Origin: Chloroflexota bacterium
GTDB lineage: Bacteria; Chloroflexota; Anaerolineae; UBA4142
Direction: 5' to 3'
Length of the DNA stretch: 37,862 bases
Assembly (NCBI GenBank): GCA_016223105.1
Contig: JACRPR010000158.1
Coordinates: 1 to 37,862, forward strand
Shown: one piece after another, positions 5,421-34,927 of the stretch
Numbering within the stretch: position 1 is the first letter of the stretch
Layout of the letters: every line of letters begins with the position of its first letter
Translations under genes and position numbers: made by a program
Notes under the pieces: generated by a model
The model's database searches: none
Told to the model about the DNA's origin: nothing
Seen by the model: the letters and a program-made list of their open reading frames with translations, nothing else

Positions 5421-5424
5421 CGCG

Positions 5425-18500: not shown

Positions 18501-18506
18501 CTTTAT

Positions 18507-18542: not shown

Positions 18543-18549
18543 CTCAACC

Positions 18550-20706
18550 TCATTTAGCAAACACCACGCGCAATGCCGGGTCGCCGATCCACACGAACGT
18601 ATCAATCACCTCGCGGCGATCCGACGAATCGTTCGTCATTTTTTGTTTCGCGCGCCACAACGCTTCGCCCCAGGTCGTCGCGCCGTGTTCAAACAATTCC
18701 GCGTACAGCAAACGCATCAATTGTTTTTGCGGATCGGTCAACGAAAGTCCGGTCGGCACAACGCCACCGATGATGCCGCCGTCCGTTTTGAACAACGCTT
18801 CTTCGGTGAGCGAATCTTTTTGCGGATGATAAAAATATCCATCGAGACAGGTCGGCGTGATCAACACCGGCAAGCGATCCGCGTTTTTAATTTCTTTGAG
18901 ATTTTCCGCGCTGAACAACGGACCCGCCGCCCAGGTGTCAATCGAACCGTGACCGATGTACGACAACATTCCCGCGCCTTCATTCCAGCGCGCGATAATT
19001 TCCGGGCGCGTCGCTTTGACATCGCCTTTGCGGTCGGCGAGATAAATTTTCGTCGGCTTGAAATCGCGCGGTAACTTTTCGACAAGCTCGTTCGCCATCA
19101 CGACAAAATCGGCGTCCTTATCGTCCGCCGAAAAAATCGCGCGGCGATGCCATTCAGCGGGTTGCGCTTTTTCGTACGCGATAATTTTTTCGACCACGCG
19201 CGTAACTTGCTCCGGCGTTTTCGCGGGGATACGTCCAATCGCGAGCGCGGGCAAGCCGGTTTTTTCATCGAACGAGACAAACCAATTGTCACTCGCGGCT
19301 TGAGTCAGGTGCAACGTCTCGACCAAAAATGTTGGGACGAGATTTTTGTTCGCGCCGTTTTGATAATCGCGAAAATCGTAACTCGCCTTGCCGACCAGGA
19401 GCGCGAAACGCGGCGCGGGTTTCGCCCACTGCGTTTGCGTCCATTTCAAAAATTCGCGCAGAGCGTACGGCGATTCGATGCCATTGCCAAATTCATCGTA
19501 CACCGCGTCAATCGTCGCGACGCTCACCTTGAGACCGCGCTCGCCGCGAAACTTGACGAGCGGTTGAAGCGCGTTGACAAAATTCGCGTGGGTGATGATG
19601 ATGTAATCGGCGGGACGACTCGCGCGCAATTCCGCGCCGGTCATTAACGCGATTTTTGTGGGCATTCTGCGCGCGTTCGCGCCAAGCGCGAGCCAGCGTC
19701 GCGTCGCGCTCGATCCGAATGTGAGCGCGCGATTTGTAATCGTCGCGCCAGTCGCGCGTTGTGGCTCGGCGGGATCGGTGATGTCGAACAGATCAATCGC
19801 GTCGCCGGCAAAACCATCCACGCGATACGCGCCCGCGTCGGTTTGAAAAATCAGCGCGTCGTCTTGCGCGATGAGCCGGCGCGTGTACGTCATTTCAAGC
19901 GCGCGCAGTAAAACGATATCGGCGGCGGCGGGCGTGTCGCCCGGCGCGATCAAGCGAATCGAGTTTTCCCCGGGCTTGACCAGGTTTGCGGGAATCGTCG
20001 CGGTGATCGTGCGCGCGCCTTGCCCGTCCCATTTTTCATCCGCGACGCGCGTGGTGTTGAACTGCACGGTCAAGTGATGATCGGGATTGTTCGCCGCGTC
20101 TTGTGTGCGACTCCAGAGATACGTGCGAAGTTGCGCGTTCGCGCTAATCGCGGAAGGCAGTGTCAGCGTGATCGTCGTCGTCGTCGGTGCGGAGAGCGAT
20201 TGCCAAAACCAATGTTCGCCCGCGATCCCGGCTTCGACGATGTAGAGCGAGGGCTTGCTCGCGCGCGCGACACTCGTTACCGAATCTTTCGGCGCGCCGG
20301 TTGGCGCGGCAGGCACCTCGCGCATTCGTTTGCCCGGTTGCGCGCCCCAGCGGAACCAGTACACATCGAAATTGGAAAAAGTGGAATCGGGCGCGGGCGC
20401 GAAAAATTCTAACGCGAAATTTTCTGGCGCGCCGAGCATGCGAATCGCGATTTCGTGATCGCCGCGAAAAAGTTGAAGCGTGGGCGCGTCGATCTGATTT
20501 GGATCCGCGCCGGCGGCGCGCAACGCGCTCGCAGTAACGCGATACATTCCTTCGGTCGGGATGATCAATTTATAACGCGGGATTGCCGGTTGCGCGAGCG
20601 GCACCGGCGTTGGCTCGGAAGGCGCGCTGGGAAGCCAGGAATCGAACAGCGCGCAATTGACGAGGAAAAATAAAATGGCGATGGTGAGCGCGAGACGTTG
20701 CATCAT
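18550..20706 (-). CDS. C25 (gingipain-family) peptidase, putative lipoprotein
   Basis: A 718-residue exported protein. The N-terminus MMQRLALTIAILFFLVNC ends in a lipobox-like LVNC, so it may be a lipoprotein. The catalytic histidine is in MLSYIGHGSIDTWA and the nucleophilic cysteine in LPVLITPTCLDGYF, the C25 HG...C arrangement; KLSVATIDAVYDEFGNG-type residues precede the domain. The region YKLIIPTEGMYRVTASALR (residues about 45-65) and LQLFRGDHEIAI match the N-terminal part of the larger C25 at 21787-24867. Unlike Bacteroidota gingipains there is no type IX sorting domain. The ATG overlaps the stop of the Fn3-like gene upstream (ATGATG), so the two are made together. C25 enzymes cut after Arg or Lys in known cases; specificity here is unknown. 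Confidence 0.88.
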   Translation of the reverse strand: MMQRLALTIAILFFLVNCALFDSWLPSAPSEPTPVPLAQPAIPRYKLIIPTEGMYRVTASALRAAGADPNQIDAPTLQLFRGDHEIAIRMLGAPENFALEFFAPAPDSTFSNFDVYWFRWGAQPGKRMREVPAAPTGAPKDSVTSVARASKPSLYIVEAGIAGEHWFWQSLSAPTTTTITLTLPSAISANAQLRTYLWSRTQDAANNPDHHLTVQFNTTRVADEKWDGQGARTITATIPANLVKPGENSIRLIAPGDTPAAADIVLLRALEMTYTRRLIAQDDALIFQTDAGAYRVDGFAGDAIDLFDITDPAEPQRATGATITNRALTFGSSATRRWLALGANARRMPTKIALMTGAELRASRPADYIIITHANFVNALQPLVKFRGERGLKVSVATIDAVYDEFGNGIESPYALREFLKWTQTQWAKPAPRFALLVGKASYDFRDYQNGANKNLVPTFLVETLHLTQAASDNWFVSFDEKTGLPALAIGRIPAKTPEQVTRVVEKIIAYEKAQPAEWHRRAIFSADDKDADFVVMANELVEKLPRDFKPTKIYLADRKGDVKATRPEIIARWNEGAGMLSYIGHGSIDTWAAGPLFSAENLKEIKNADRLPVLITPTCLDGYFYHPQKDSLTEEALFKTDGGIIGGVVPTGLSLTDPQKQLMRLLYAELFEHGATTWGEALWRAKQKMTNDSSDRREVIDTFVWIGDPALRVVFAK

Positions 20707-21786: not shown

Positions 21787-24700
21787 TTACCGCAAGATCG
21801 CCGGGAAAAACATTTGCGTTTGGAATTGCAACTGCGATGCCGGGTCGCCGAGTAAAACAAATGTGTCGAGTAAATCCAGGTGTGTACCGCTGGCATAGCG
21901 TTGTTGTTTGCCGACAACGGTCGCCAAGCCGATGCGCCGAATGTTTTGCGTCATCAACGCGTCGTAAAAACCGCGATGCAAATAATCGTGTCCCTGCGCG
22001 ACGCCCAACCCGGTCGCCGCCCAACTCGCGAGCGCGCCATTGCCCACCAAGCGCACATTTTTTTCGGCGAGCCCATAGCGCCACGGATCAATGTGCTGAA
22101 AAACCCCGGTATAGCACGTCAGTTCGATCATCATCGGCGCTTTGTTGCCGTTGGTCAACAGCGTCAAATCGCCGTTATTGTATGGATCGAGAATATCGCC
22201 GTTCCCTCTAAAAAAACTTTCGCCGCCCCACGCGGTCTGCGAACCGTGTCCGACATAGTTGATGATCAACCGCCCGCTATTGAACGCGGTAAAAAACGCG
22301 TCGCGCACGGCGGTTACATTCGTGTACGGCGGCGAGTAGGACAAGCCACACCAGGGATACGCGATCCAATTCGTGCACGGATTGTAGTAAATCCGTTGAG
22401 TGTTAAATGTGAACGGCACGAGTTGCGGATTGCTCGCGACCGAGTCGGAATAATTCCAAAAATTACCGGCACTGTCCGGCACACCAGTTTCGGTGAACGC
22501 ATTATCGGTCAGAAATGTGAGCGCGCCGCGCCAGCCGCCCGTCGGCGGAGTTTGTTCGTTCGCCAAAATTTTGTTGACCACCGCGCTCAACTCGCTGGTG
22601 GTGTTGACCGGCAAACGACCGAGTGCGAGAAACGGCACCGTGTTCGTCGGCGCGTTAAACGCGACGAAACGGTTGTCGCTCGCGGTTTCGGCAAGCCAGG
22701 GATCAACCACATTGAGCAGTGTCGGAATTTGGATGGGCTGGGAGATGATCGGATCCGGAATTGCCGGGCACGGCTTTTGCGTGGAACAATAATTGCGCGG
22801 ATCGAATGTGCCATCGCCGATCAATACCGCGTAGGTCGGCGCGGGCGCTTGCCAATTCGCGTACGCGTACGCGAGAAAATCGCGAAGCGCGATCGCGTCC
22901 GCGACGCCGTCGCTAAATTCGTCGTACACATCCTGAACATCCACGAGTTTGACGCGCAGACCTTGCCCCGCGCGTAAATTCATCAACGGTTGCGCGCCGG
23001 TGAGAAACGCGCTCGGCGCGATCGCGATGTAATCCGCGCCGTTGCTCGTCGCGGATAAATTCGCGAACACATCTTTGGTGATCTGGATCGGCGATTTGAT
23101 TTGAGACTGGGTCAGCGCGATGTACTCGCGCGCGGTTGTCAGCGTATCGCTGAACGCCAGCGTGAACGTGGGACCGATCGCGGCGGTGATCACGTTCGGA
23201 TAACGCGCGACGTTCAACGGATCGGTGATGTCGAACGCTTTGATCGTCACCGCAGAAAAATTTCCGATTTGATAATTGAATGTGCCGGTGATCGCCTGGC
23301 GAAAACGCAACGTATCGGTAATCGCGGTGTGCGTCGCGTTGTACGCAACGTCAAAATAATTTACATCAATTCTGGAAAAGACGCCGGTGCCGATACCTTC
23401 GACGCGCAAATCATTCGCGCCCGCGAGCAAGAACGCTTGATCGAACGTAAAGGTCGGCGTGGAATAGAGTTGATGATTCCAGGTGGCTTCGCCAATGTAA
23501 TAGTTGTTTACATAGAGTGGTGCGCGATAGATCGGGATCGAAAATTTTGTCGTGTCCACAAAACCGGCTAAATTGATCGTGAGCGCCGCCGAGTACGGCG
23601 CGCCCGACGCGAGACGGTTGCTATTGATTTGGAATGGCAAGGTGATCGCGCTCGTGGTGTAATTGTAGACCGAAGCCCACGTCCAATGATCGGCTTCTTG
23701 CCAGGGCGCGGTGCTAAGATATGCGAGGTTCTGTTCAAAATGTTGCGTATCGGTGAACACGCCGGGAATTGTGGATGCGCCAACGCCATCGTCGCTCGCC
23801 ATCCGTTTGCCGGTTGCCGCGCTGTGCGTCAACCAGTACACATTCGTCGTCGTGTATTTGGTGGATGCGCGCACGCCCCAAAATTCAAAATAATTATTCG
23901 CGCCGCAGGTCGTGTTCCACGTCGAACCGATCACATTGATCGCGAGTTCGGTGTTTTGTTTGTAGAGTTGCAAAGTCGCCGGGTTGAGTGCCGCGGGATC
24001 AAGTCCTTGCGCTTGCAAATCCGCGCAGGTTACTTTGTATATGCCGTCATCGTTCAGCGCGATTTTGTACCACTCGCCGCCAGAGTAACGCGGCGCGCGC
24101 GGCGGTCGCGATGGCAAACCGCGCGTGCGCCAATTGCGCGCGGTGGAATAATTCGCGAACGCGCGTTGAAATACCGGCTCGAACGCGCCTTCGTCCACCG
24201 CGCCGCCGAGCGTTTGCGGCGATTGCCCGCGCGGGTACGTCAAGGTGATTTCAACGCGGATGCGCCGGTGAAAAATGATCTGGCGCGTCGCGCCGTTGTA
24301 TTGCAAGGGATTGAACTCGACGACGATGTAATGTTGACTGCGCCAATCGCCAGTGTTGCTGATGCGCGCGGATTCTGCCGGATAAAAACGATTTGCAGAA
24401 TAGGTCGCGGCATCGGCGCGATAAGTGTGTCCATCAAAACGCGGCACACCATCTGGCTTGGTGTAATCCACGCGTTGCGTCGGCACGGGCAGAGGCGGCG
24501 TCGCGAGCGCATCGGTACGCGCATCGTCTGCGATGATTCGCAGTGATGCTTGCGCGCCCGGCGGAATCGCGACCAGCGTGCCTTCGCGCGGCAATTGCGG
24601 TTTGCCGGTCTCGCCGCCGTTGACGAGACCTGGGATCGCGAGCGCGGTGAATGTACCGGCGTCCACGCGTTGTGTGCGCGCGGTGTACTCGCCGAATTGA

Positions 24701-24867
24701 AATTCCAACACAATGCGATTCAGGTCCGATTGCAAAACGCGCGCGCCGTTCGTCGCGGATTGCGCGGCGAGCGAATTCGCATCGAACACGAGAAGCGTGC
24801 CGGCAAGGGTCAATGCAAAAATAGCGAGACCTAACGAACGTCGCAAATTTAATTGGTGTTGAAGCAT
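21787..24867 (-). CDS. Large secreted C25 (gingipain-family) peptidase
   Basis: A 1026-residue protein with a signal peptide (residues 1-35, LGLAIFALTLAGTLLVFDANSLAAQ). An N-terminal propeptide-like region (about 40-240, with IPPGAQASLRI and FNPLQYN) matches the pro-region style of C25 zymogens. WYKIALNDDGIYKVTCADLQ and LQLYKQNTELAI mark a beta-rich segment shared with the smaller C25. In the catalytic domain the histidine is in LIINYVGHGSQTAWGG and the cysteine in APMMIELTCYTGVFQH. The C-terminus stops soon after the catalytic domain (LLGDPASQLQFQTQMFFPAIL), so no sorting or adhesin domains are present. It follows the Fn3-like lipoprotein by 58 bases. It probably processes surface proteins or scavenges protein; the substrate is unknown. 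Confidence 0.9.
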   Translation of the reverse strand: MLQHQLNLRRSLGLAIFALTLAGTLLVFDANSLAAQSATNGARVLQSDLNRIVLEFQFGEYTARTQRVDAGTFTALAIPGLVNGGETGKPQLPREGTLVAIPPGAQASLRIIADDARTDALATPPLPVPTQRVDYTKPDGVPRFDGHTYRADAATYSANRFYPAESARISNTGDWRSQHYIVVEFNPLQYNGATRQIIFHRRIRVEITLTYPRGQSPQTLGGAVDEGAFEPVFQRAFANYSTARNWRTRGLPSRPPRAPRYSGGEWYKIALNDDGIYKVTCADLQAQGLDPAALNPATLQLYKQNTELAINVIGSTWNTTCGANNYFEFWGVRASTKYTTTNVYWLTHSAATGKRMASDDGVGASTIPGVFTDTQHFEQNLAYLSTAPWQEADHWTWASVYNYTTSAITLPFQINSNRLASGAPYSAALTINLAGFVDTTKFSIPIYRAPLYVNNYYIGEATWNHQLYSTPTFTFDQAFLLAGANDLRVEGIGTGVFSRIDVNYFDVAYNATHTAITDTLRFRQAITGTFNYQIGNFSAVTIKAFDITDPLNVARYPNVITAAIGPTFTLAFSDTLTTAREYIALTQSQIKSPIQITKDVFANLSATSNGADYIAIAPSAFLTGAQPLMNLRAGQGLRVKLVDVQDVYDEFSDGVADAIALRDFLAYAYANWQAPAPTYAVLIGDGTFDPRNYCSTQKPCPAIPDPIISQPIQIPTLLNVVDPWLAETASDNRFVAFNAPTNTVPFLALGRLPVNTTSELSAVVNKILANEQTPPTGGWRGALTFLTDNAFTETGVPDSAGNFWNYSDSVASNPQLVPFTFNTQRIYYNPCTNWIAYPWCGLSYSPPYTNVTAVRDAFFTAFNSGRLIINYVGHGSQTAWGGESFFRGNGDILDPYNNGDLTLLTNGNKAPMMIELTCYTGVFQHIDPWRYGLAEKNVRLVGNGALASWAATGLGVAQGHDYLHRGFYDALMTQNIRRIGLATVVGKQQRYASGTHLDLLDTFVLLGDPASQLQFQTQMFFPAILR

Positions 24868-24925: not shown

Positions 24926-25375
24926 TTAGGTTGTTCCAGTCCGATTGCCGCGTGTGCTTCGTTTCAAGATCACCAGCGCGAACCCAATCAACACAACACC
25001 GCCGAGCGCGAGCATGGCGATCTCGGCAATCCCAAACACGCCGGGCGCGGTGATAATGATCGGTCCGTGGCGTTCGGTTTTGCCGCCGAACTCGACATCT
25101 TCGAGTTCGTAATAGTACGTCTGTCCCGCGATGACAGTGGTGTCTTCGTAGCGATATTTGCCGCCGGTGATCGCGTCGGGCGAAGCGGCGATGAGTTGCG
25201 CGTTCACTTTATCAAATGGACCTTCGGCTCGCGTGCCGCGATAAAGATTAAAACCGGCGGTGTTGATTTCGGTCGCGGTTGTCCACTCCACAATGATGCG
25301 CGCCGGCGCGGGCGCGCACGCGGATAAAAATAATAGCACAACCAAAGCAAAGCGAGGCACTCTTTTACTCCACAT
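24926..25375 (-). CDS. Fn3-like lipoprotein with C-terminal membrane span
   Basis: A 149-residue protein. The start MWSKRVPRFALVVLLFLSAC has a lipobox (LSAC), so it should be lipidated at cysteine 20. A fibronectin-III-like domain follows (about 25-110) with VEWTTATEINTAGFNLYRG, YRYEDTTVIAGQTYYYELEDV; then a membrane span (AEIAMLALGGVVLIGFALVIL) and a basic tail. This is the small partner of the large C25 peptidase encoded next. The -10-like TATAAT at 25379-25374 overlaps the ATG, so translation might instead begin at the GTG at 25360, which has GGAG 7 bases upstream; that would keep the lipobox. Confidence 0.78.
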   Translation of the reverse strand: MWSKRVPRFALVVLLFLSACAPAPARIIVEWTTATEINTAGFNLYRGTRAEGPFDKVNAQLIAASPDAITGGKYRYEDTTVIAGQTYYYELEDVEFGGKTERHGPIIITAPGVFGIAEIAMLALGGVVLIGFALVILKRSTRGNRTGTT

Positions 25376-25417
25376 TATAGAGTGGCGAAACGATGTAAAA
25401 AATGCACGCGGGCGTGG

Positions 25418-25454
25418 AGACCTCAGGTTTTCGCGCAAGCAACCTGGAAGGTCT
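25418..25454. repeat. Palindromic element upstream of the Fn3 lipoprotein gene
   Basis: AGACCTCAGGTTT and AACCTGGAAGGTCT form an imperfect stem around TCGCGCAAGC. It resembles the element at 21748-21779, and both bracket the first Fn3-C25 cassette. Confidence 0.55.
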
Positions 25455-25473
25455 TTGATCGCCAATTTAACAC

Positions 25474-25511
25474 AAAACGAGCAAACGGACAAAATGACCG
25501 TTTGCTCGTTT
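25474..25511 (-). terminator. Intrinsic terminator after the GEVED surface-protein gene
   Basis: A perfect 14-base stem (AAACGAGCAAACGG type, 25475-25488 with 25498-25511) and 9-base loop, with T-rich flanks on both strands (TTTTGTG after the minus-strand stem). It lies about 50 bases beyond the stop at 25562 and could act in both directions. Confidence 0.85.
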
Positions 25512-25561: not shown

Positions 25562-26908
25562 TTATTTACGGCGGCGCAATACGGCGACTGCGCCGATCAT
25601 CGCGACGCCCAACAACCCCGCGACGCCAAACAGCGTCAGCGAGTTTGATTCGGTGTTCGCGGTGAGCGAAGACAGATTGACCGCCGATGGCGCGGCGCCG
25701 CCGATGCGATGGTCTTCGACTTCGCCGGCAGGAAATTGCCCGGTCAATGCCGCGCTTCCATCCGTTATAGTAACATCATCACAATTTCCAGTGAATACCG
25801 TTCGCGGGAGCAAGCGGAACCGCGAGAGAAAAGTATTCGGGAAGGAAACCGTGCCGGGAATTGTGAATGTATAATCGGCTGTTCCCGGGGTTACGACTTG
25901 CTGGAAGATGATGTTTTCGTTTGTGCCCGTGAAATTGTTGTCCCCATTCCAGTCAATCCAGCCGTAGAGACAGCCATTGCCCCCCGTAACGGTCACGCGT
26001 ACACTGCCTCCGGCCGCACCGGTCGTCCACACAACCCCCGGAGTCCCAATCACACCATCTTCATCATCCGAGGTGCTGAGATCATCGCCAGCGGCATTCG
26101 CGTGCGGTTGTCCATCCAGCTCGCCGTCAATTAAACTGCCGAGGCGAAGCCCGGCTACATCAACTGCATGCGCCGCGCCATTCGGTAGCACCGTCATCGA
26201 ATATGCCGACGGCAAATCACCGAGGTCAATCGAGCCGGTCTTGACCAAATCAATTGCGACATCATTGCCAGCGGTAGTCGTATTGATTAGAACGGTAATT
26301 GCCCCGACCGATGAAAAACTTGCCGATGAGGAACAGCCCGACCCAAGAGCAAAACCGCTATACGGAAAAACAATCAAGCGCGGGGTTTCACCGTATGGAA
26401 GCGCGTTTGCAGTTTTGGTCTGAGAGGAACAGGTCGTTGCCGATCCAGAATAAATGGTAACGACGATCTGACTGTTAAAGTTGCTTCCGTGCAATGATAC
26501 GAGGAAAGCGTTATCCGCCGACAGGTCAATCGGACCCAGACCGCTTGGATTCAGATTTACATGATTGTCTGAACCATCATACGTAAGAAGGGTTGAGCCG
26601 CGATTATCCGTATCGGGATTGTGGGAGAAGGTGCTTGCCGGTGAGTTGGACACACCTTGCAATGTGCCTGAGCCAGCGGTAACAGTTACCGTAATTTCAC
26701 GCTCTCCACCAAGCACAGTGCCATCAGCCAAAGCCCCCCAAATACTGCCAACACCGGGCTGACTAACTGTTTGGCTGGAAGTAAAACTATCAACCAACTG
26801 ATCAGGATTCGCACCGACCGGCTTGGCTTGCGGCACCATAATTACGACTGCCACAAGCAACAGTGCTAACGACAGCGCAGACAAGCGCGGGAGAGATTTA
26901 ATTTTCAT
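25562..26908 (-). CDS. Secreted GEVED-domain surface protein with C-terminal anchor
   Basis: A 448-residue protein. The start MKIKSLPRLSALSLALLLVA follows AAAGGGG by about 8 bases and gives a signal peptide ending near VGANP. The middle is beta-rich (SVTVTAGSGTLQG-like and LVTIYSGSATTCSSQ regions). Residues about 250-400 match the GEVED domain: DLGDLPSAYS, DEDGVIGTPG, GWIDWNGDNNF and the terminal GEVEDHRI. The C-terminus has AVNLSSLTANTESNSLTLF, a membrane span and RRRK, a likely anchor shared in pattern with the protein at 30435-31685. GEVED domains occur in large secreted proteins and adhesins. GC content is visibly lower and CGCG runs rarer than in the neighbours, so transfer is possible. 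Confidence 0.85.
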   Translation of the reverse strand: MKIKSLPRLSALSLALLLVAVVIMVPQAKPVGANPDQLVDSFTSSQTVSQPGVGSIWGALADGTVLGGEREITVTVTAGSGTLQGVSNSPASTFSHNPDTDNRGSTLLTYDGSDNHVNLNPSGLGPIDLSADNAFLVSLHGSNFNSQIVVTIYSGSATTCSSQTKTANALPYGETPRLIVFPYSGFALGSGCSSSASFSSVGAITVLINTTTAGNDVAIDLVKTGSIDLGDLPSAYSMTVLPNGAAHAVDVAGLRLGSLIDGELDGQPHANAAGDDLSTSDDEDGVIGTPGVVWTTGAAGGSVRVTVTGGNGCLYGWIDWNGDNNFTGTNENIIFQQVVTPGTADYTFTIPGTVSFPNTFLSRFRLLPRTVFTGNCDDVTITDGSAALTGQFPAGEVEDHRIGGAAPSAVNLSSLTANTESNSLTLFGVAGLLGVAMIGAVAVLRRRK

Positions 26909-27427: not shown

Positions 27428-27470
27428 GCCGAAACATTTTTCCGCGCAAGCGTGCGAAAAATATTTTGGC
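27428..27470 (-). terminator. Hairpin after the peptide precursor gene
   Basis: On the minus strand GCCAAAATATTTTTCG pairs, with wobble pairs, with CGGAAAAATGTTTCGGC around a GC-rich loop, about 40 bases beyond the precursor stop. There is no T-run, so it may stabilise the 3' end of the short, abundant precursor message or terminate weakly. Confidence 0.5.
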
Positions 27471-27510
27471 TGACAAGCCCAACGCCGTCCGCGTGATCAC
27501 ATCGCGTCCG

Positions 27511-27672
27511 TTAGCTGTACGGATTGGCGTCGCAGGTGGTACTAATACCGGGATTTTTGGTGGACGGACATGCGGAAGCGGTGGCTTCCAACGGCGCGCG
27601 ATACACAATGTCCGGTTTTTCGTACACCTTTTTCTCGACGGTTGGCTCGACACGATTTTCTGGCTGGTTCAT
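27511..27672 (-). CDS. Putative RiPP precursor peptide (two-Cys core)
   Basis: A 53-residue peptide whose ATG at 27672 follows a strong AAGGAGGAG by 5 bases; longer in-frame starts lack such a site. Residues 1-31 look like a leader: acidic/basic with V-YEKPDI-VYRAPLEATA; YEKPDI (17-22) fits the YxxPx[LI] pattern bound by PqqD-like domains in lasso-peptide systems. The likely core is residues 32-53, ACPSTKNPGISTTCDANPYS, with cysteines 35 and 47, many Ser/Thr, a GI and a terminal serine. It lies 93 bases downstream of the radical SAM/SPASM gene. Probable fate: leader recognition by the PqqD protein, radical SAM modification, perhaps phosphorylation of Ser53. It could instead be a small regulatory peptide; no database match was possible. 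Confidence 0.8.
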   Translation of the reverse strand: MNQPENRVEPTVEKKVYEKPDIVYRAPLEATASACPSTKNPGISTTCDANPYS

Positions 27673-27765
27673 GGTTTCTCCTCCTTGGAAGATTGGTTCG
27701 GAAAAATTTTGGATCGCAATTGGATACGTTGCGAACATGCGCTCCGACGAAACGACGTCCGTCGG

Positions 27766-28977
27766 CTACACAGGAATTTGCGCCCGCATGGGCAATAGTT
27801 CAGAGAGCGGAATAAAGTTGGTCGGCAGAGGTTCACCTCCCTGGTTTGGTTCTGCGCACAAGTGTTGGACGTACTCGCGCAGATGCGCGGGAATCGGATA
27901 ATCGGGTGGCAACGCGCCTTTTTCGATCAACACCTCGCGGCGCGCGAGCGCGGCTTGACAATTCACGAGCGCCGGGGCGCGTAGATCGCCGCTTTCCAAT
28001 CGCGCTAATCCGTGACAGCGCAGGCACAGCGTTCGCAATTCGCACGTCCGGCAGACCGGCAATTCACCCAACGTTAAATGGCTTAACTCTTCCCACAACG
28101 GCGACGCGTCCCAAATTTCGCGGAGCGTTTGTTGGCGCACATTCCCGGCGGCAGTGCGAACCTGGATACACGGATAAATGTTGCCGTACGGATCAATCGC
28201 GATGCCCTTGGTCGCGATGCCGCACGTCCGCGTCGCGTCCGTCATTTGGCGATTGAGCCAAAACGCCGGGTCAATTTCATCGCGAAGCACAGCGACCATT
28301 TCCGCGTGCGACATGCGGTGCTTGAGCGGATCGAGTGCGCCGGTATCTTTCGGCGTGATCGTTACATCGCGCCGGAATCGCGCGCCTAACTCTTGCGCCA
28401 ATGCGCGCAAAGCGGGCAACTCGGTCGCGTTTTCGCGCATCAGCGGCGTTTTGATCTGGATGCGAATGTCGCGTTCCTTCAACAACCGCGCCGCGCGGAG
28501 CGTTAATTCGTGCGAGCGCGGAATCCGCGTAATCGCATCGTGAACTTGCGGGCGCGTGCTGTAAACGCTCAACTCAACTTCGTAAGGATGCAACGCGGCA
28601 ATGCGATCGGCGACTGCCGGTTTGATCAAAATGCCATTCGTAAACAGTCGAAGCAGAAACCGTTTTGAATGGGCGTACTCGGCAATCGTGAAAAAATCAC
28701 GCCGCGCCAGAATCTCGCCGCCGGAAAATGTGATGTTGAGAATGTTCAGTTCGGCAAGTTGATCCACGACGCGGAGACACTCTTCGGTTGTTAATTCATC
28801 GGGGATGTCGGCACTGGGCGAAAAAACATCAAGGTAACAATGCGTGCACCGTTCATTGCACCGATACGTCAACTCCCAATGCGCGCTGATGAGCCGCCGC
28901 GCCTTGACTGCGCCACCAATAACTCGCTCGTATGGATTCAATTCCTCGGGCTGGATCGAGGGACCTTCAATTGACAT
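27766..28977 (-). CDS. Radical SAM/SPASM peptide-modifying enzyme (PqqE-like)
   Basis: A 403-residue enzyme. The radical SAM motif is C40-x3-C44-x2-C47 (CNERCTHCYLD), followed by ITFSGGEILARRDFF (the GGE SAM-binding motif). The SPASM region near residues 260-355 has CGIATKGIAIDPYGNIYPC and CRTCELRTLCLRCHG plus a later NC, enough cysteines for two auxiliary [4Fe-4S] clusters. This architecture is that of PqqE, anaerobic sulfatase maturases and sactipeptide or ranthipeptide synthases, which form C-C or thioether links in a peptide. Upstream are PqqD and HprK-like genes, downstream the precursor. A promoter and a folded leader precede it. Confidence 0.9.
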   Translation of the reverse strand: MSIEGPSIQPEELNPYERVIGGAVKARRLISAHWELTYRCNERCTHCYLDVFSPSADIPDELTTEECLRVVDQLAELNILNITFSGGEILARRDFFTIAEYAHSKRFLLRLFTNGILIKPAVADRIAALHPYEVELSVYSTRPQVHDAITRIPRSHELTLRAARLLKERDIRIQIKTPLMRENATELPALRALAQELGARFRRDVTITPKDTGALDPLKHRMSHAEMVAVLRDEIDPAFWLNRQMTDATRTCGIATKGIAIDPYGNIYPCIQVRTAAGNVRQQTLREIWDASPLWEELSHLTLGELPVCRTCELRTLCLRCHGLARLESGDLRAPALVNCQAALARREVLIEKGALPPDYPIPAHLREYVQHLCAEPNQGGEPLPTNFIPLSELLPMRAQIPV

Positions 28978-29022
28978 TACGCCGCCTATAAATTACGGCA
29001 GAACGGGTACGCTACTTGCTCC

Positions 29023-29072
29023 CTCTAATCCTTCAGCGTCCACCGTGTTGGCACAATTCCAACCGATTAGAG
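29023..29072 (-). promoter_or_regulatory. Structured 5' leader of the radical SAM gene
   Basis: On the minus strand CTCTAATC (29072-29065) pairs perfectly with GATTAGAG (29030-29023), enclosing a GTTGG/CCAAC hairpin (29063-29059 with 29051-29047) and GGTGGACGCTGAAG. It lies in the 130-base leader between the promoter at 29114-29142 and the ATG at 28977. It matches no riboswitch class I recognise; it may be a new element or an incidental stem. Confidence 0.45.
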
Positions 29073-29113
29073 ATCAACACATCCACCGGAATCGAATTTA
29101 ATTTTCTGCGCGC

Positions 29114-29142
29114 ATTATCGCACAAGCAACGCGGAAAATCAA
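29114..29142 (-). promoter_or_regulatory. Sigma70-like promoter for the radical SAM and precursor genes
   Basis: TTGATT (29142-29137), a 17-base spacer and GATAAT (29119-29114). The start would be near 29107, leaving a leader of about 130 bases. It would give the enzyme and precursor a transcript separate from the HprK-PqqD pair. Confidence 0.72.
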
Positions 29143-29218
29143 GTAGGAAAAATACAAAGGTCGCGGCGGTTCAAAAGTCCTTTCAACTATCATGCTGAGA
29201 GAAGCGAAGCGTCGCGCA

Positions 29219-29515
29219 CTATTTAGAAGAGTCGGACGCGGCGGAGCGAAATACAATCGCGTGCGCGGCAATGAGTTTTTGCAAAAACTCGGCGACATCG
29301 TCGCGCGCGTGCGCGTCGCTCACAGCATACTCGCGCGCGATCACTTGCGCGATGTGGTCGGCACTGCGCGCGCCGTCAATCAGTTCCCAGATGCGCGTGC
29401 CCACTTGATTGAGCACCATCACATCGCCGGCATCCGCCGTAACGATCACCGCCGCACCATCGACGACACGCGCGGCAACTTGATCGTGCGCGACAATCGG
29501 GCTAGTCCAATCCAT
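29219..29515 (-). CDS. PqqD-like peptide-recognition protein
   Basis: A 98-residue protein with the PqqD fold signature: GAAVIVTADAGDVMVLNQVGTRIWELIDG followed by helices to AEFLQKLIAAHAIV. PqqD and its relatives (RiPP recognition elements) bind leader peptides and present them to a radical SAM enzyme or other modifier. It overlaps the end of the HprK-like gene by 14 bases and lies 240 bases upstream of the radical SAM gene; that gap has a promoter and a folded leader but no gene. It probably binds the YEKPDI region of the precursor at 27511-27672. Confidence 0.88.
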   Translation of the reverse strand: MDWTSPIVAHDQVAARVVDGAAVIVTADAGDVMVLNQVGTRIWELIDGARSADHIAQVIAREYAVSDAHARDDVAEFLQKLIAAHAIVFRSAASDSSK

Positions 29516-30314
29516 CTAACATGCTCCAGAATTCAGGATCGCGTTTGAAAGACAACGCATAGCGCGGCACGCTTGTCGCGAGCTCGTTCGCGACGCGCAT
29601 CACGCGTTGCGCGTTTTGCGGCTCGCTCATCACGAACGGCACGCACGCGGTCAGGCGCGCGGCGGCGAGTGCAATCGATAACGGTTCGAGCCGGTTTGCG
29701 GCGGCTTTGTTCAGAATAAAAATGCCGGCGAGATCGGCGGAATCATTCGTGCGCGGCGCTTCCGGGAAATCGCCGCGAAACGGCACGCCAAACGCGCGGA
29801 ACTTGCCGTTGTGTTTTTTGACGATCACAATGTCATCGCTGAGAACCGTGCGCTCCGGCGATAAGCTCGCAACCGTCGTCTTGCCACTGCCCGATGGACC
29901 GTAGAACACATAGCCGCGCCGATTTGAAATTACGCCGCACGCGTGCAAAACCAGCCCGCCTTGATCGAGACACAACCACGCGTACAGCACGCGTAAAAAA
30001 TTTTCGATGCGTCCGGTCGGACGCATTAACAATTCGCCGCGCCCTATTGTAAGGTCTACCCACCCGGTTTCAAAATGCGATTCAAAATCAATCCGCCCGT
30101 TGTGGTTGCGCGTGCCGATATAATAATTACGCGTGAAACCATACGGCACGAACTGTTCGCCCGGTTCAACGCGAATGTGAATTGTGATCGGCGTCGGTTG
30201 GTAAGGTTCGGTAAACGCGGCATAGAAATTCTCGGTGAACGCTTGCGTCGCGGGATCACATTCGCCCAATGCAAGATTCACCGGAATGTCGGCGATGTTG
30301 ATAGTGAGGTTCAT
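29502..30314 (-). CDS. HPr kinase-like protein of a peptide-modification cassette
   Basis: A 270-residue protein. H124 lies in LVLHACGV, Walker A is GPSGSGKT (139-146) and LSDD (158-161) matches the HprK catalytic aspartate region. The N-terminal 120 residues are not the HprK regulatory domain. HprK-like proteins of this kind accompany PqqD and radical SAM or lasso-peptide genes; in some lasso clusters (PadeK, ThcoK) they phosphorylate the C-terminal serine of the precursor. Here the precursor ends in serine, so that role fits. It is not a normal HPr kinase: no HPr gene is nearby. The ATG at 30314 lies only 9 bases after a TATAAT, so the message may be almost leaderless. Confidence 0.83.
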   Translation of the reverse strand: MNLTINIADIPVNLALGECDPATQAFTENFYAAFTEPYQPTPITIHIRVEPGEQFVPYGFTRNYYIGTRNHNGRIDFESHFETGWVDLTIGRGELLMRPTGRIENFLRVLYAWLCLDQGGLVLHACGVISNRRGYVFYGPSGSGKTTVASLSPERTVLSDDIVIVKKHNGKFRAFGVPFRGDFPEAPRTNDSADLAGIFILNKAAANRLEPLSIALAAARLTACVPFVMSEPQNAQRVMRVANELATSVPRYALSFKRDPEFWSMLDGLD

Positions 30315-30323
30315 AGCAAAACT

Positions 30324-30333
30324 ATTATACCAA
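30324..30333 (-). promoter_or_regulatory. Extended -10 promoter for the HprK-PqqD pair
   Basis: TTGGTATAAT on the minus strand (30333-30324) combines a TG extension with a perfect -10 box. No good -35 is seen. Initiation about 7 bases on would leave a leader of only two or three bases before the ATG. Confidence 0.6.
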
Positions 30334-30434: not shown

Positions 30435-31685
30435 TTATTTCCTCAATCGCCACATCCCGCCAAGTGCGATCAAACCGATCACACCACCCAACGCGAAGAT
30501 GATCCAATCGTTTGATTCATTCGCGCGCGCGGCGAAATCGTTCAACCGGACCGCGGTCGGTGATGCCTCCGACGAAATCGCCCATTCGGAAAATGTGGAG
30601 ACACCGGTTTTTTCGATATAGTTGGAATCCGCCGTGCCGGTCACGCGCGTCGTCGGCGGAAGACCAACCCAGTAGCCATTGACCGAATCGTAACGATACA
30701 GGTACAGGTTCGCTTCATTCACCGGCGGATCGTTCAGATCAACACTGCGATAATGCAAACGCACGGTCGCGGTGTTGCCGCCCGGCACGGTCAACGTGTA
30801 TTTACGTTTGACGTACTTGGTGCCCAAGCCCGCCGGTGCTTGTTTGGACATCGTTACGATCACATCGCTGGTAACCGCCGACGAAAAATCGAGCGTGGTG
30901 AATTGACTACCGTACGATTTCACGCCACTCGTCGGACTCGCGCGGCGCACAGTGCCCAGCACATCATAGTTGCCGGTCGTCGTCGCGCTCGCGCCCATCG
31001 TGAGGGTGTTGGTTGTGGTGTCCAGATCGCCTTGCGTGAGCGCGAGCGTGCCATTCACGGTCGCGTTGTTGCCGAGCGTAACATTGTTCGACGATTTGTT
31101 GACCGTGAGATTGTTGAGCGGGGATGTTGTGTTGAGCCCTTGCGCGCCGGTTCCGTTAAATTCGAGCGTGCTGGTTCCCGCGACGAAACTCGCGCCCAAC
31201 GTCGCATTGCCGGTAATTTGCACAAGCGCGCTACCGGCATTCAACGTCCCGCTGTTCGATAGGTCGCCGTTTAGATCAACCGTGCCGTTCGCGTTCAGCG
31301 TGCCGTTGATTGTCGTGTTGCCATTGACGGTCAGTTGGTTGAGCGGTGTTGTGAACGCCCCGCCGGTACTGACGGTCAAGCCGCCCGCGCCCACCGTTAA
31401 AGTTCGTGTGCCATTGCTGTCGTGGCTCAAAATTCCACTCGTCCCGCCGCCGACGATCAATTGGTACACGCTCGCATTTGTGTTGAGCGTAACCGTGTGT
31501 CCATCATTCACGATCACAATATCGCTCGCGGTTGGTCCGCCGCCACACGTCCAGATCGCGTCCCCCCAATTCCCGGTGCCGGTACTGACACAGACCGCCA
31601 ACGGCGCGGCAGACGCGCTTGAAGCCGCAGTCAGCATCAATCCGATGAGCAGTCCAGAAATTAAAATCCATTTGAGCGTTCGCAT
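30435..31685 (-). CDS. Secreted beta-helix-like surface protein with C-terminal anchor
   Basis: A 416-residue protein with a signal peptide (residues 1-27, ISGLLIGLMLTAASSASA) and GGAG-type ribosome binding site (AAGGAGAA, 8 bases). Residues about 60-250 are Asn/Thr/Gly-rich with short repeating strands (TVNGNTTINGTLNANGTVDLNGDLS), typical of beta-helical surface proteins. A separate beta domain follows (VKRKYTLTVPGGNTATVRLHYRS). The end has SPTAVRLNDFAARANESND, a membrane span (IIFALGGVIGLIALGG) and MWRLRK. Its C-terminal pattern matches the GEVED protein at 25562-26908. Ligand unknown; a transcript of its own is indicated by the promoter-like and terminator signals around it. Confidence 0.83.
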   Translation of the reverse strand: MRTLKWILISGLLIGLMLTAASSASAAPLAVCVSTGTGNWGDAIWTCGGGPTASDIVIVNDGHTVTLNTNASVYQLIVGGGTSGILSHDSNGTRTLTVGAGGLTVSTGGAFTTPLNQLTVNGNTTINGTLNANGTVDLNGDLSNSGTLNAGSALVQITGNATLGASFVAGTSTLEFNGTGAQGLNTTSPLNNLTVNKSSNNVTLGNNATVNGTLALTQGDLDTTTNTLTMGASATTTGNYDVLGTVRRASPTSGVKSYGSQFTTLDFSSAVTSDVIVTMSKQAPAGLGTKYVKRKYTLTVPGGNTATVRLHYRSVDLNDPPVNEANLYLYRYDSVNGYWVGLPPTTRVTGTADSNYIEKTGVSTFSEWAISSEASPTAVRLNDFAARANESNDWIIFALGGVIGLIALGGMWRLRK

Positions 31686-31851: not shown

Positions 31852-32892
31852 TCAACATATCCGCGGCAACTGTTCGCCGATCATCATATCCACAATCCGC
31901 GTCGCGCCGATCGATGTGCGCGCGACGACCATTCCCGGATGCGCCGCGACCGCGCGTCCGATGATCGCGGCGTCGCCGCCGAGCGCGTGTGCGCGCATCG
32001 CATCAATCACGCGCGGCGCGATTTCGTTCGGCACAAACGCGATCAACTTGCCTTCGTTCGCGACATAAAACGGATCGAGTCCGAGCATCTCACACGCGGA
32101 CGCGACATCGCGCGGCACGCGGATCGCGCGCTCGTCAATCTCGATGCCGATTTTTCCGGCATCCGCGATTTCGTTCAACGCGCTCGCGATCCCGCCGCGT
32201 GTCGGATCGCGCAAAACATGAATGTCGCGCGTGATCGCGAGCATCGTCGCGACCAGGTCGTGGAGCGGCGCGCAGTCGCTGAGAATTTCGGAATCGAAAC
32301 GCAAACCTTCGCGTTGCGATAAAATCGCGATGCCGTGCAAACCGATCGCGCCGGACAAGATGATCGCGTCGCCCGCGCGCGCATTGCCCGCGGAAATGTT
32401 CACGTCATCGGGAACGATCCCGATCCCCGCGGTGTTGATGTAAATTTTATCGCCGTGTCCGGCTTCGACCACTTTGGTATCACCAGTCACGATTTGCACG
32501 CCGGCGCGTTTTGCCGCCGCGCCCATCGAGTACACGACGCGCGTCAAATCGTCGAGCGAAAATCCTTCTTCGAGAATGAATCCCGCGCTGAGATACAACG
32601 GGCGCGCGCCGCTCATTGCGAGATCGTTCACAGTGCCATTGATCGCGAGATCGCCAATCGTGCCGCCCGGAAAAAAAATCGGTTTGACGACAAACGAATC
32701 GGTCGTGAATGCGAGCCGCGCGTTTTCCATCGCGAACACGGCTTGATCGTTGAGTGGCGCGAGCAACGCGTTGTCGAACGTTGGCGCGAAAAGATGCTCG
32801 ACCAAATCGCGCGATAATTTTCCGCCGCCGCCGTGTCCCATCACAATGTTCGGATAATCGCGGAGTGGAAGCGGACATTGCAGAGTAATCAT
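31852..32892 (-). CDS. hypE: Hydrogenase maturation factor HypE
   Basis: A 346-residue protein that dehydrates the carbamoyl group on its C-terminal cysteine to a thiocyanate, the source of the cyanide ligands of the [NiFe] site. MGHGGGGKLSRDLVEHLF is the N-terminal signature, GDTKVVE and DPTRGG mark the ATP-binding PurM-like fold, and the chain ends PRIC, so the reactive terminal cysteine is present. The ATG at 32892 has AAGG 8 bases upstream and is preferred over a TTG six codons earlier. It follows hypD after an 86-base gap occupied by an inverted repeat and is the last gene of the hyp cluster here. Confidence 0.95.
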   Translation of the reverse strand: MITLQCPLPLRDYPNIVMGHGGGGKLSRDLVEHLFAPTFDNALLAPLNDQAVFAMENARLAFTTDSFVVKPIFFPGGTIGDLAINGTVNDLAMSGARPLYLSAGFILEEGFSLDDLTRVVYSMGAAAKRAGVQIVTGDTKVVEAGHGDKIYINTAGIGIVPDDVNISAGNARAGDAIILSGAIGLHGIAILSQREGLRFDSEILSDCAPLHDLVATMLAITRDIHVLRDPTRGGIASALNEIADAGKIGIEIDERAIRVPRDVASACEMLGLDPFYVANEGKLIAFVPNEIAPRVIDAMRAHALGGDAAIIGRAVAAHPGMVVARTSIGATRIVDMMIGEQLPRIC

Positions 32893-32924
32893 TCGATCAA
32901 CCTTTACCAAGTTGAATAGTTGGA

Positions 32925-32989
32925 TAGTTGGATAGTTGCATAGTTGTCAGACAACAATCCAACTAACCAACTATGCAACTATCCAACTA
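32925..32989. repeat. 22-base inverted repeat between hypD and hypE
   Basis: Arms of 22 bases (TAGTTGGATAGTTGCATAGT type; 32925-32946 and 32968-32989) match perfectly around a 21-base loop, and further TAGTTGGA units precede the left arm. The right arm contains the hypD stop codon and its last codons (LVG). The unit ATAGTTGG repeats in tandem, so it probably arose from a small repeat. It may cause partial termination or stabilise the hypD message. Confidence 0.85.
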
Positions 32990-34082
32990 AAGCGAATGTA
33001 TGTCGCGCGTACCGATAGTACGCCGCGCACGCGCCTTCGGTCGAAACCATTGTCGCGCCGAGCGGTTTCGCGGGCGTGCATTGTTTTCCGAACGCGACGC
33101 ACTCGTTCGGTTTTTTGCGTCCTTGCAAAACCAAACCACTGATGCACAGGGGCGATTCGTTGACGCGCAGATCGCCAACGTCGAAACGGAGTTCGGCATC
33201 GAATTCGCGCAGGTTGTCACGCAAACGCCAACCGCTTGCCGGAATTTCGCCGATGCCGCGCCATTTGCGGTCGCACACCTGGTATACCTCCGCGATCAAT
33301 TTTTGCGCGGCGACGTTGCCTTCGCGCAGAACCGCGCGCGGGTACGCGTTCTCGACTTGCGCGCGGCACTCTTCGAGTTGACGCACGCACGCGAGAATTC
33401 CATTCGCGATGTCGAGCGGCTCGAACCCGGTAACGACAATCGGCACGCGATATTTTTCCGCGAGCGGTTCGTACTCGCGATAGCCCATCACCGCGCACAC
33501 ATGCCCGGCGGCGAGAAAACCTTTCACGCGATTTTCCGGATCGCTCAGCAACGCGATAATCGCGGGCGGCACCAGGGCGTGCGAAACCAGGATCGAAAAA
33601 TTTTTCAATCCTTCGCGGCGCGCCTGAAACACCGCCATTCCATTCGCGGGCGCGGTCGTCTCGAAACCGACCGCAAAAAAAACGACTTGCTTGCCGGGAT
33701 TAGCGCGCGCGACTTGCAACGCGTCGAGCGGCGAGTAGACAATGCGTACATCGCCGCCTTTCGCTTTGATTTGAAATAAATCGGTCGTCGAGCCGGGCAC
33801 GCGGAGCATATCGCCGAACGAAGTGAAAATCACATCGGGGCGCGCGGCAATCGCGAGCGCGCGATCAATCACTTCGAGCGGTGTAACGCAGACCGGGCAA
33901 CCCGGTCCGTGAACGAGTTCGATCTGCTTCGGCAAAAGTTGATCAATGCCATACCGCATAATCGAGTGCGTTTGTCCGCCGCACACTTCCATCAACGTCC
34001 ATTCACGCGTCGCGACGCGCGCGATCTCGTCGCACACCGCGCGCACGCGCGCTTCATCGCGATAAGTATCGAGTGATTGCAT
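32979..34082 (-). CDS. hypD: Hydrogenase maturation factor HypD
   Basis: A 367-residue iron-sulfur protein that with HypC assembles the Fe(CN)2CO group. CGGQTH (34-39) and GPGCPVC (59-65) hold the conserved catalytic cysteines, [10 protein letters not shown] and [16 protein letters not shown] follow, and the C-terminal cluster cysteines lie in FGKQCTP and [12 protein letters not shown]. Its ATG has AAGGAG 5 bases upstream. It is separated from hypC by a plus-strand toxin-antitoxin pair, so it needs its own promoter; a TTGTTG-18-CATAAT match on the minus strand overlaps the toxin-antitoxin promoter. The end of the gene lies inside the 22-base inverted repeat. Confidence 0.96.
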
Positions 34083-34091
34083 GGTTGCTCC

Positions 34092-34121
34092 TTGACATAC
34101 GAATTATGACCGGATTATAAT
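34092..34121 (+). promoter_or_regulatory. Near-perfect sigma70 promoter for the toxin-antitoxin pair
   Basis: Perfect TTGACA (34092-34097) and TATAAT (34116-34121) with an 18-base spacer, 27 bases before the antitoxin ATG. The symmetric ATTATAAT core and the overlap with a minus-strand -10 candidate for hypD suggest shared control. Confidence 0.85.
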
Positions 34122-34147
34122 GCGAACAACAAACGATTGGAGGAAAT

Positions 34148-34378
34148 ATGGCATCGGCTACAATCGCCACAGTAATTCAAATGATGGAAACGTTACCCGA
34201 AGCGGCACAAGAACAAGTTGTGGAACACTTGCGCGAATATCTTTTGGATTTGCAAGACGAGATGGAATGGGATTCGCTCGTTCGCAAATCGCAACCTCAA
34301 CTTGTCGCCGCCGCGCGGCGCGCGAAAAAAGAAATCGCGGAAGGGTTGGCAAAACCTTTGGATTACAACCAACTATGA
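34148..34378 (+). CDS. Putative antitoxin of a type II toxin-antitoxin pair
   Basis: A 76-residue, helical, acidic-then-basic protein: MASATIATVIQMMETLPEAAQEQVVEHLREYLLDL followed by WDSLVRKSQPQLVAAARRAKKEIAEG and KPLDYNQL. This matches the DUF2281/antitoxin style in which LPEExQxEVLDFIxFL motifs precede a toxin-binding tail. GGAGG lies 4 bases upstream of the ATG. Its stop overlaps the toxin start (ATGA, 34375-34378). It probably binds and inactivates the toxin and may repress the promoter upstream; no DNA-binding domain is obvious. Confidence 0.8.
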   Translation: MASATIATVIQMMETLPEAAQEQVVEHLREYLLDLQDEMEWDSLVRKSQPQLVAAARRAKKEIAEGLAKPLDYNQL

Positions 34379-34638
34379 AGTCTTCTGTACTGCCATCATT
34401 CTGGGATGCTTACAATTCACTTGATGAAGCGTTGAAACGGAGCGCGCGAAAATCGTATCGCTTGTGGTCAGAGAATCCGTTTCATCCTTCTCTGCATTTC
34501 AAATGCCTCAACCGCGAAGAAAATATCTGGTCGGTTAGAGTCACGCGCAGTTGTCGCGCGCTCGGCACATTGGAAAGTGATACCGTAACCTGGTTTTGGA
34601 TTGGGCACCACGATGTGTACGAGCGTCATTTTTCATAA
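34375..34638 (+). CDS. Putative RelE/ParE-like toxin
   Basis: An 87-residue protein with SFWDAYNSLDEALKRSARKSYRLWSENPFHPSLHFKCL and a later ENIWSVRVTRSCRALG and DTVTWFWIGHHDVYERHF, the helix-helix-sheet layout of RelE/ParE toxins: the VTRSCRALG strand is the analogue of the VG.YRL region, and GHHDVYER the C-terminal catalytic loop of HigB/YoeB-like enzymes. Such toxins cut mRNA on the ribosome or block gyrase. It is coupled to the antitoxin and ends 5 bases before the hypC stop on the other strand. It lies inside the hyp gene cluster, the only plus-strand genes in the window. Confidence 0.82.
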   Translation: MKSSVLPSFWDAYNSLDEALKRSARKSYRLWSENPFHPSLHFKCLNREENIWSVRVTRSCRALGTLESDTVTWFWIGHHDVYERHFS

Positions 34639-34643
34639 CCGCG

Positions 34644-34907: not shown

Positions 34908-34927
34908 TTCTTCCTCCATTTATGATT

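Follow-up and report, generated by a model that had tools for sequence, protein, structure and literature searches.

Four neighbouring, co-oriented genes on the minus strand of a Chloroflexota contig appear to form a RiPP cassette, in which a short peptide is modified by a radical SAM/SPASM enzyme and is probably phosphorylated by an HprK-like kinase on its very last amino acid. The window analysed here is the whole 37,862-nucleotide stretch of contig JACRPR010000158.1 (assembly GCA_016223105.1), and the cassette consists of the kinase, a PqqD protein, the radical SAM/SPASM enzyme and a 53-residue two-cysteine peptide (Table 1). The first-pass annotation had proposed a RiPP cassette from the sequence alone, and all four genes are where it placed them. 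Related cassettes were found in the window's phylum (taken as Chloroflexota) and in those of Rokubacteria, Nitrospirales, Omnitrophota and "Deltaproteobacteria" records.

Table 1 Features of the cassette and its surroundings, with positions counted from the first letter of the window.
Coordinates	Strand	Feature	Basis
27511..27672	-	Precursor peptide, 53 aa; leader with YEKPDI (YxxPxI) and LEA, core with two Cys, C-terminal Ser	ORF and ribosome binding site read directly; homologs beside the same enzymes
27766..28977	-	Radical SAM/SPASM maturase, 403 aa	Pfam Radical_SAM 1.2e-20, SPASM 5.9e-9; AF2 model pLDDT 81.7; best Foldseek matches PqqE, SkfB, 5wgg (presumably CteB), SuiB
29219..29515	-	PqqD-type RRE protein, 98 aa, presumed leader binder	Pfam PqqD 1e-16
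29502..30314	-	HprK-like kinase, 270 aa; His124, Walker A GPSGSGKT with Lys145, SDD with Asp160-Asp161	Alignments; AF2 pLDDT 90.9; Foldseek PEPCK/HprK matches
21787..24867	-	C25 (gingipain-like) peptidase with C25 propeptide, recurrent neighbour	Pfam Peptidase_C25 1.7e-75, Propeptide_C25 1.4e-17
24926..25492	-	Small membrane protein, FN3-like by eye (start codon not settled), recurrent in loci of this phylum	Homologs beside the second cassette of this genome and others; no Pfam hit
25562..26908	-	GEVED-domain surface protein between the peptide and the C25 group; may not belong	Pfam GEVED 1.4e-11
30435..31685	-	Beta-rich secreted-looking protein upstream of the kinase; may not belong	Distant homolog (30% over 326 aa) between the PqqD and radical SAM genes of the second cassette; Pfam G8 below its cut-off
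18550..20706	-	Second C25 peptidase gene; association with the cassette uncertain	Pfam Peptidase_C25 5.5e-83

The kinase has no Pfam hit over a cut-off (best PEPCK_ATP, 1.2e-4), and its nearest NCBIfam models are SynChlorMet ScmC (37.9 bits, cut-off 125) and HprK_rel_B (30.8 bits, cut-off 200). The predicted fold is related to PEPCK and HprK/P, although the Foldseek TM-scores of the model to HprK/P are low (0.25-0.33 by query length). The peptide starts at an ATG behind GGAGGAG and matches no Pfam or NCBIfam model at E <= 1. It is nevertheless not a chance ORF, because homologous peptides stand beside homologous enzymes both in the same genome (contig C4, which holds a second, homologous cassette; 41% over 51 aa) and in another genome, G121 (51% over 41 aa). 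A third locus of the window's genome encodes the radical SAM and HprK-like domains as one protein of 707 aa near two such peptides. Fusion proteins of this kind were seen in 5 of the loci we retrieved, including this one, and such peptides were found in 4 of the 5; the kinase half was recognised by our own profile and by its motifs.

The first-pass annotation stated that no lasso cyclase, protease or exporter is adjacent. This is not right for the wider locus as regards a protease, because two C25 peptidase genes lie downstream. C25 genes also follow the homologous cassettes on C4 and in G121, and C25 homologs were found within 5.5 kb in 21 of 128 loci containing both the kinase and the radical SAM gene. 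In other genomes S24/S26-like peptidase, nucleotidyltransferase and ABC genes often accompany the cassette; the S24/S26-like and NTP_transf_5-like genes were present within 5.5 kb in 97 and 70 of the 128 related loci, respectively, but neither was found in the window. No lasso cyclase or B2 peptidase domain appeared in Pfam scans of 29 window proteins.

We next asked how tightly the kinase and this radical SAM subfamily are linked. In the window's phylum, 19 of 19 radical SAM places of 305 bits or more lie on one contig with a kinase place. In the phylum of G301, another genome, all 22 radical SAM genomes carry the kinase on the same contig, while 29 of 95 genomes have it at all; in the phylum of a further genome, G304, 23 of 26 radical SAM genomes do. 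The radical SAM subfamily nearly always sits by the kinase, but the profiles used (A4 and A6) were built only from kinase loci, and the counts hold for the subfamily so defined.

The first-pass annotation had suggested that conserved core cysteines and a terminal Ser across genomes would support its proposal. Every precursor we counted has at least 2 Cys, but this was a selection rule. The end was not: with a written rule that did not consider the last residue, 101 distinct precursors first seen in 95 loci were collected, of which 83 end in Ser, 11 in Thr and 7 otherwise, whereas Ser is found at 4-22% at positions -2 to -20. This rule was made after two earlier sets were known. The first set contained 92 distinct precursors, 87 with a radical SAM gene near (70 Ser, 9 Thr, 8 other) and 5 without (2 Ser, 1 Thr, 1 Asn, 1 Lys), two of the latter, from loci L068 and L051, being of another kind. 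For this set 21 candidates were dropped for distance, Cys count, leader position or length; among them those of loci L039 and L046 look real and end in Glu and Ala, and that of L037, with one Cys, ends in Thr. The second set, of 94 (76 Ser, 10 Thr), was made by adding seven by hand after their ends had been seen, six from loci retrieved later and one (L044) missed before. The written rule gained ten peptides and lost three of the second set, namely the window's own (hidden by a chance motif in its longer ORF), that of L069 (ends in Asn, no Lys/Arg before the motif) and that of L187. The union of the last two sets is 104, with 84 Ser, 12 Thr and 8 other.

In the set of 94, the 76 terminal Ser compare with at most 28 in 10,000 random draws from the last 20 residues. 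The stretch from the first Cys to the end is 12 to 55 residues long in this set, so the end itself is what is kept. Single-linkage grouping of the set of 94 at 50% identity gave 35 groups, 67% with Ser, but at 40% only 6 groups remained through the shared leaders and the excess was not significant (P 0.10); the set of 101 gave 38 groups at 50%, 28 with a Ser majority and 32 with a Ser/Thr majority. Of 88 ORFs that failed the written rule, 16 also end in Ser. An earlier reject set showed 24% Ser (23 of 97), but it held real precursors that had been excluded for overlapping long ORF calls. In the earlier precursor set, 35 of 123 distinct loci had no accepted precursor.

A control of kinase-less cassettes with the same leader could not be built, because no cassette proven to lack the kinase was found; the control is thus internal, that is, other positions of the same peptides, plus the ORFs that failed the rule. 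Ten weaker radical SAM loci of the window's phylum (L177-L186) had no PqqD and no kinase by our profiles and no precursor of this type, with spurious ORFs in L181 and L182, and we take them for another family. L187 has a precursor ending in Thr and no kinase, but its contig begins 70 bases before the PqqD gene.

The kinases of these loci keep the motif reported for lasso-peptide kinases (PMC9266682, PMC10368454). His and Lys are present in 95 of 95 best kinase ORFs and the full His-Lys-acid-acid set in 93 of 95, the second acid being Glu in 44 of 95. PadeK, ThcoK, SyanK and PsmK phosphorylate a C-terminal Ser (PMC9266682). Some precursors do not end in Ser or Thr, although their kinases keep the motif where checked (7 of 7).

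Taken together, these observations support, with fair confidence, a RiPP cassette in which the PqqD protein binds the YxxPxI leader and presents the peptide to the radical SAM/SPASM enzyme, which modifies the cysteine-containing core (most likely as a cysteine cross-link), and to the HprK-like kinase, which phosphorylates the C-terminal Ser or Thr. The leader is then removed, probably near the LE(A/T) stretch, by a peptidase that is S24/S26-like in most relatives and perhaps a C25 peptidase here. The product is probably exported, and further tailored where a nucleotidyltransferase is present. Every chemical step, the order of the steps, cleavage, export and the role of the product are inferred from sequence.

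One possible alternative, which we consider unlikely, is that the kinase acts on a Ser/Thr near the start of the core and that the C-terminal Ser serves something else, such as recognition or glycosylation. The related kinases BsfK and LppK phosphorylate Ser3 of the core (PMC10368454, PMC13381572), and Ser/Thr is moderately frequent around the first Cys (40% at -2, 38% at +3). However, no position from -12 to +8 exceeds 40% Ser/Thr in the set of 94, against 94 of 101 at the end. A small redox cofactor or carrier pathway of the PQQ/mycofactocin kind, in which the peptide is consumed to release a modified residue, seems less likely still. The radical SAM protein scores best against mycofactocin MftC, and its predicted fold matches PqqE best, but the scores are far under the cut-offs for MftC (135.3 against 265 bits) and PqqE (93 against 381 bits), no other PQQ or mycofactocin protein was named in the Pfam scans of the 29 window proteins, and the cores of 53 relatives share little beyond Cys. 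In addition, a kinase and an S24/S26-like peptidase are probably not part of those pathways.

The relation of the kinase fold to PEPCK and HprK/P also allows a regulator, acting like HPr kinase or on another protein, that merely sits in the operon; its fusion to radical SAM enzymes, the close linkage in several phyla and the terminal Ser/Thr of the peptides make this very doubtful. Least likely is a lasso-peptide or LPP cluster that lost or dispersed its cyclase and kept an accessory radical SAM enzyme. PqqD, the HprK-like kinase and the YxxP leader are shared, as are S24/S26-like, NTP_transf_5-like and ABC genes in many loci, but no cyclase or B2 domain appeared in the window scans (the related loci were not scanned for these), and the pattern recurs across phyla rather than in one lineage.

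A broader reading, slightly more likely than not, is a wide RiPP class in at least five bacterial phyla whose defining pair is a SPASM radical SAM enzyme and an HprK-like kinase, sometimes one fused protein, making cysteine-cross-linked peptides that carry a phosphate, and perhaps a further group built on it, on their C-terminal Ser/Thr. The cassette joins radical SAM modification and HprK-type phosphorylation, which we found described only apart. The terminal Ser/Thr gives a simple rule that predicts the kinase's target in about a hundred gene clusters, and the fused enzymes allow both steps to be tested with one protein and one peptide. It also suggests that phosphorylated RiPPs reach well beyond lasso peptides and the LPPs of Bacillota.

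Among known systems, the SynChlorMet cassette (NCBIfam TIGR04248-TIGR04251) has ScmC, the PqqD-related ScmD and the radical SAM/SPASM proteins ScmE and ScmF, but the window's proteins score far under the curated cut-offs (37.9 against 125, 36 against 100, 112 against 400 and 66.5 against 400 bits, respectively). The SPASM peptide maturases SkfB, StsB, PapB, SuiB and PqqE resemble the radical SAM enzyme in fold and profile, again with scores under the cut-offs, and known maturases of this kind appear to work without an HprK-like kinase. The linear polyphosphorylated peptides (LPP) described in 2026 (PMC13381572) share the HprK-like kinase, a discrete RRE and a YxxP leader, and in many relatives of our cassette also the S24/S26-type peptidase, NTP_transf_5-like and ABC genes. 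LPP is, however, said to be restricted to Bacillota and phosphorylated at core Ser3, its leader motif is YxxPxVLxHQxIxFETxxS whereas the window leader is YEKPDIVYRAPLEATAS, and radical SAM, rSAM and SPASM are not mentioned in the main text of that paper. The kinase-tailored lasso peptides of PadeK, ThcoK, SyanK and PsmK share the kinase motif, a PqqD-type B1 protein, a YxxP/WxxP leader and the C-terminal Ser (PMC9266682, PMC10368454, PMC13381572), whereas the window has a radical SAM enzyme and, in the proteins scanned, no cyclase or B2 peptidase domain. The cassette is best read as related to the kinase-tailored lasso peptides and to LPP but distinct from both.

All four genes described in the first-pass annotation, which proposed a RiPP cassette, were found as it placed them, and the kinase and PqqD genes overlap by 14 bases. 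The peptide has no family in Pfam or NCBIfam; of the 53 precursors scanned (window included), only single members gave weak and unrelated hits, to two families in each library. On one side of the cassette the window carries a glycosyltransferase block with a Wzt-type ABC exporter and another radical SAM/SPASM gene, and elsewhere it carries hydrogenase maturation genes and an ORF with a ParE-like toxin domain.

Features of the window and of related loci (locus coordinates are those of the retrieved stretches)
Locus	Coordinates	Strand	Feature
Window	29502-30314	-	HprK-like kinase, 270 aa
Window	29219-29515	-	PqqD protein, 98 aa
Window	27766-28977	-	Radical SAM/SPASM enzyme, 403 aa
Window	27511-27672	-	Peptide, 53 aa, GGAGGAG before its ATG
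Window	1518-10971		Glycosyltransferase block with Wzt-type ABC exporter
Window	1518-3167		Another radical SAM/SPASM gene, within this block
Window	31852-37321		Hydrogenase maturation genes HypD and HypF and an AIR synthase-like gene
Window	34120-34638	+	ORF with a ParE-like toxin domain
L006 (contig C4, same genome)	13658-19408		Second cassette with homologous peptide, FN3-like protein and C25 peptidase
L006 (contig C4, same genome)	7164-10571		NTP_transf_5, a PqqD-like gene and an ABC transporter, upstream of the cassette
L008 (contig C226, same genome)	8746-10869	-	Radical SAM + HprK-like fusion protein, 707 aa
L008 (contig C226, same genome)	8471-8659 and 4086-4280	-	Two WxKPEL precursors ending in SS and DPS
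L008 (contig C226), L147, L153, L124	4307-5362 (L008), 3892-5973 (L147), 2669-4990 (L153), 4009-5007 (L124)		S24-like domains fused to GNAT acetyltransferase, methyltransferase and/or NTP_transf_5 domains
L046, L051, L052	8550-8831 (L046), 906-1187 (L051), 1875-2481 (L052)		Another peptide type (YEAPxARDL or YExPxALR leaders) beside larger HprK-like ORFs
L073	3943-6118		Radical SAM, kinase and PqqD genes in a contig titled Candidatus Woesearchaeota archaeon

Related cassettes were next sought in the rest of the same 5.5 Mb genome, in which the window covers bases 1-37862 of the 46,848-base contig C80. Contig C4 carries a second cassette consisting of a kinase (41-43% identity), a PqqD protein (48%), a secreted-looking protein, a radical SAM enzyme (59%) and a 61-residue peptide with the same leader type, two Cys and a final Ser, followed by an FN3-like protein and a C25 peptidase cut by the contig end, both of which are homologous to window genes. 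By eye, this cassette also lies near sugar nucleotide genes, as LPP clusters lie in capsule loci. Contig C226 carries an ORF whose first part is a radical SAM enzyme by Pfam and whose last part has kinase motifs (HSAAAIV, GHSSAGKST, LCDD) and matches our kinase profile, although by single-sequence search this kinase part is very weak (14 bits); two further radical SAM genes and a PqqD gene accompany it. Similar fusions were seen in four other retrieved loci (L190, L194, L195 and L196), but no such peptide was found in L195.

Kinase homologs occur in 19 of 301 genomes of the window's phylum. In the phyla of the genomes holding loci L058 (Rokubacteria), L069 (Deltaproteobacteria), L065 (Nitrospirales) and L063 (Omnitrophota), the kinase was found in 29 of 95 (E <= 1e-12), 21 of 235, 28 of 198 and 47 of 193 genomes (E <= 1e-30), respectively. 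These searches listed 142 places (34, 23, 28 and 57), of which 101 were covered by 100 stretches retrieved with up to 5 kb on either side, five more lie in L058, L062, L063, L065 and L069, and four lie in stretches retrieved later. One locus, L073, is a possible archaeal case or a misbinned contig.

To ask how closely the radical SAM enzyme is linked to the kinase, we searched with a profile of the radical SAM enzymes (A6). In the window's phylum the 19 places of 305 bits or more all lie on one contig with a kinase place; the other 15 listed places score 267 bits or less, and include the fused proteins of C226 and of contig C92 of genome G011 as well as ten genomes' worth of loci without kinase, checked by one locus each. 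In the phylum of genome G301 all 22 genomes with a hit have the kinase on the same contig. In the phylum of genome G304 23 of 26 do; of the three others, one (G900) has a weaker kinase-like gene (52 bits) next to the radical SAM gene and two have the radical SAM gene near a contig end. Our profiles (A4 and A6) were built from kinase loci, so this is linkage within the subfamily so defined. In 128 retrieved loci with kinase and radical SAM genes (123 distinct; window not counted), a PqqD gene lies within 5.5 kb in 115, an S24/S26-like gene in 97, an NTP_transf_5-like gene in 70, an ABC gene in 34 and a C25 gene in 21. The fused S24-like proteins found beside these cassettes may point to further tailoring of the product. 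L057, L061 and L070 have a kinase with FN3-like and C25 genes but no radical SAM gene within 5.5 kb by our profile, and in L057 and L061 there is a YxKPxI peptide with LETxAGS and no Cys after the motif, which looks more like LPP or lasso precursors. L046, L051 and L052 show another peptide type, and in L052 the kinase ORF seems, by eye, to run on into a signal-peptidase-like domain.

We then examined the last residue of the precursors, which were picked by a rule that ignores the end of the peptide. The rule required a ribosome site, a [YWF]xxPx[hydrophobic] motif within the first 50 residues with Lys/Arg in the five before it, the first Cys 11-27 residues on, two or more Cys, at most 100 residues and a position within 150 bases of a kinase, PqqD or radical SAM gene on the same strand and not buried in a called gene. 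In total, 101 distinct peptides, first seen in 95 loci, passed; 83 end in Ser, 11 in Thr, 2 in Pro and one each in Met, Phe, Cys, Asn and Ala, while Ser at the 19 preceding positions is 4-22%. The rule, which was written after earlier versions had been seen, misses the window's own peptide and those of L069 and L187; with them, 84 Ser and 12 Thr of 104 were counted. Of 88 ORFs that fail the rule, 16 end in Ser and 5 in Thr. Because the peptides are related through their leaders the counts are not independent, but when they were grouped at 50% identity, 32 of 38 groups had a Ser/Thr majority. In an earlier set of 94 precursors, 76 end in Ser against at most 28 in 10,000 draws from the last 20 residues, and in that set the stretch from first Cys to end is 12 to 55 residues long. 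The seven exceptions (L043, L049, L065, L066, L119, L162 and L163) have kinases with the motif intact, so they are real counter-examples.

The AF2 model of the kinase (pLDDT 90.9) matches PEP carboxykinase first (E 3.8e-8, TM 0.45-0.55 by query) and HPr kinase/phosphatase next (E 1.7e-4 and weaker, TM 0.25-0.33). In the best kinase ORF of the 95 loci, His and Lys are present in all and the two acids in 93. Lasso kinases with this motif phosphorylate the C-terminal Ser of their precursors (PMC9266682), whereas BsfK and LppK phosphorylate Ser3 instead (PMC10368454, PMC13381572). In the set of 94 no position from -12 to +8 around the first Cys is Ser/Thr in more than 40%, and the terminal Ser/Thr points to the first mode; we consider phosphorylation of the last residue likely. 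For the radical SAM enzyme, the model (pLDDT 81.7) matches PqqE, SkfB, CteB (5wgg) and SuiB best. The counted cores hold two or more Cys, which was a selection rule, and most often three (51 of 94). A Cys-based thioether is the likeliest product, but the sequence does not decide between thioether, carbon-carbon bond or epimerisation, and a Cys cross-link seems to us about as likely as not.

The YxxPxI motif of the leader fits the [Y/W]xxPx[L/V/I/A/F/Y] motif bound by discrete lasso RREs (PMC13381572), which suits the PqqD protein as leader binder, although the motif was also a selection rule here. Several leaders go on with LE(A/T) or FET before the core. The LPP leader ends in FET and LPP is cut after T-1 (PMC13381572); cleavage there is our inference.

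Taken together, we are nearly certain that the four genes are a RiPP cassette, part of a wide group defined by radical SAM enzyme plus HprK-like kinase plus Ser/Thr-ended Cys peptides. Our literature searches, limited to open-licence papers so that absence is weak evidence, returned no paper for HprK-like with radical SAM and none for SynChlorMet; in the one paper found with HPr kinase, RiPP and radical SAM together, the kinase is in lasso clusters. The combination itself, however, is foreshadowed by the SynChlorMet models of NCBIfam.
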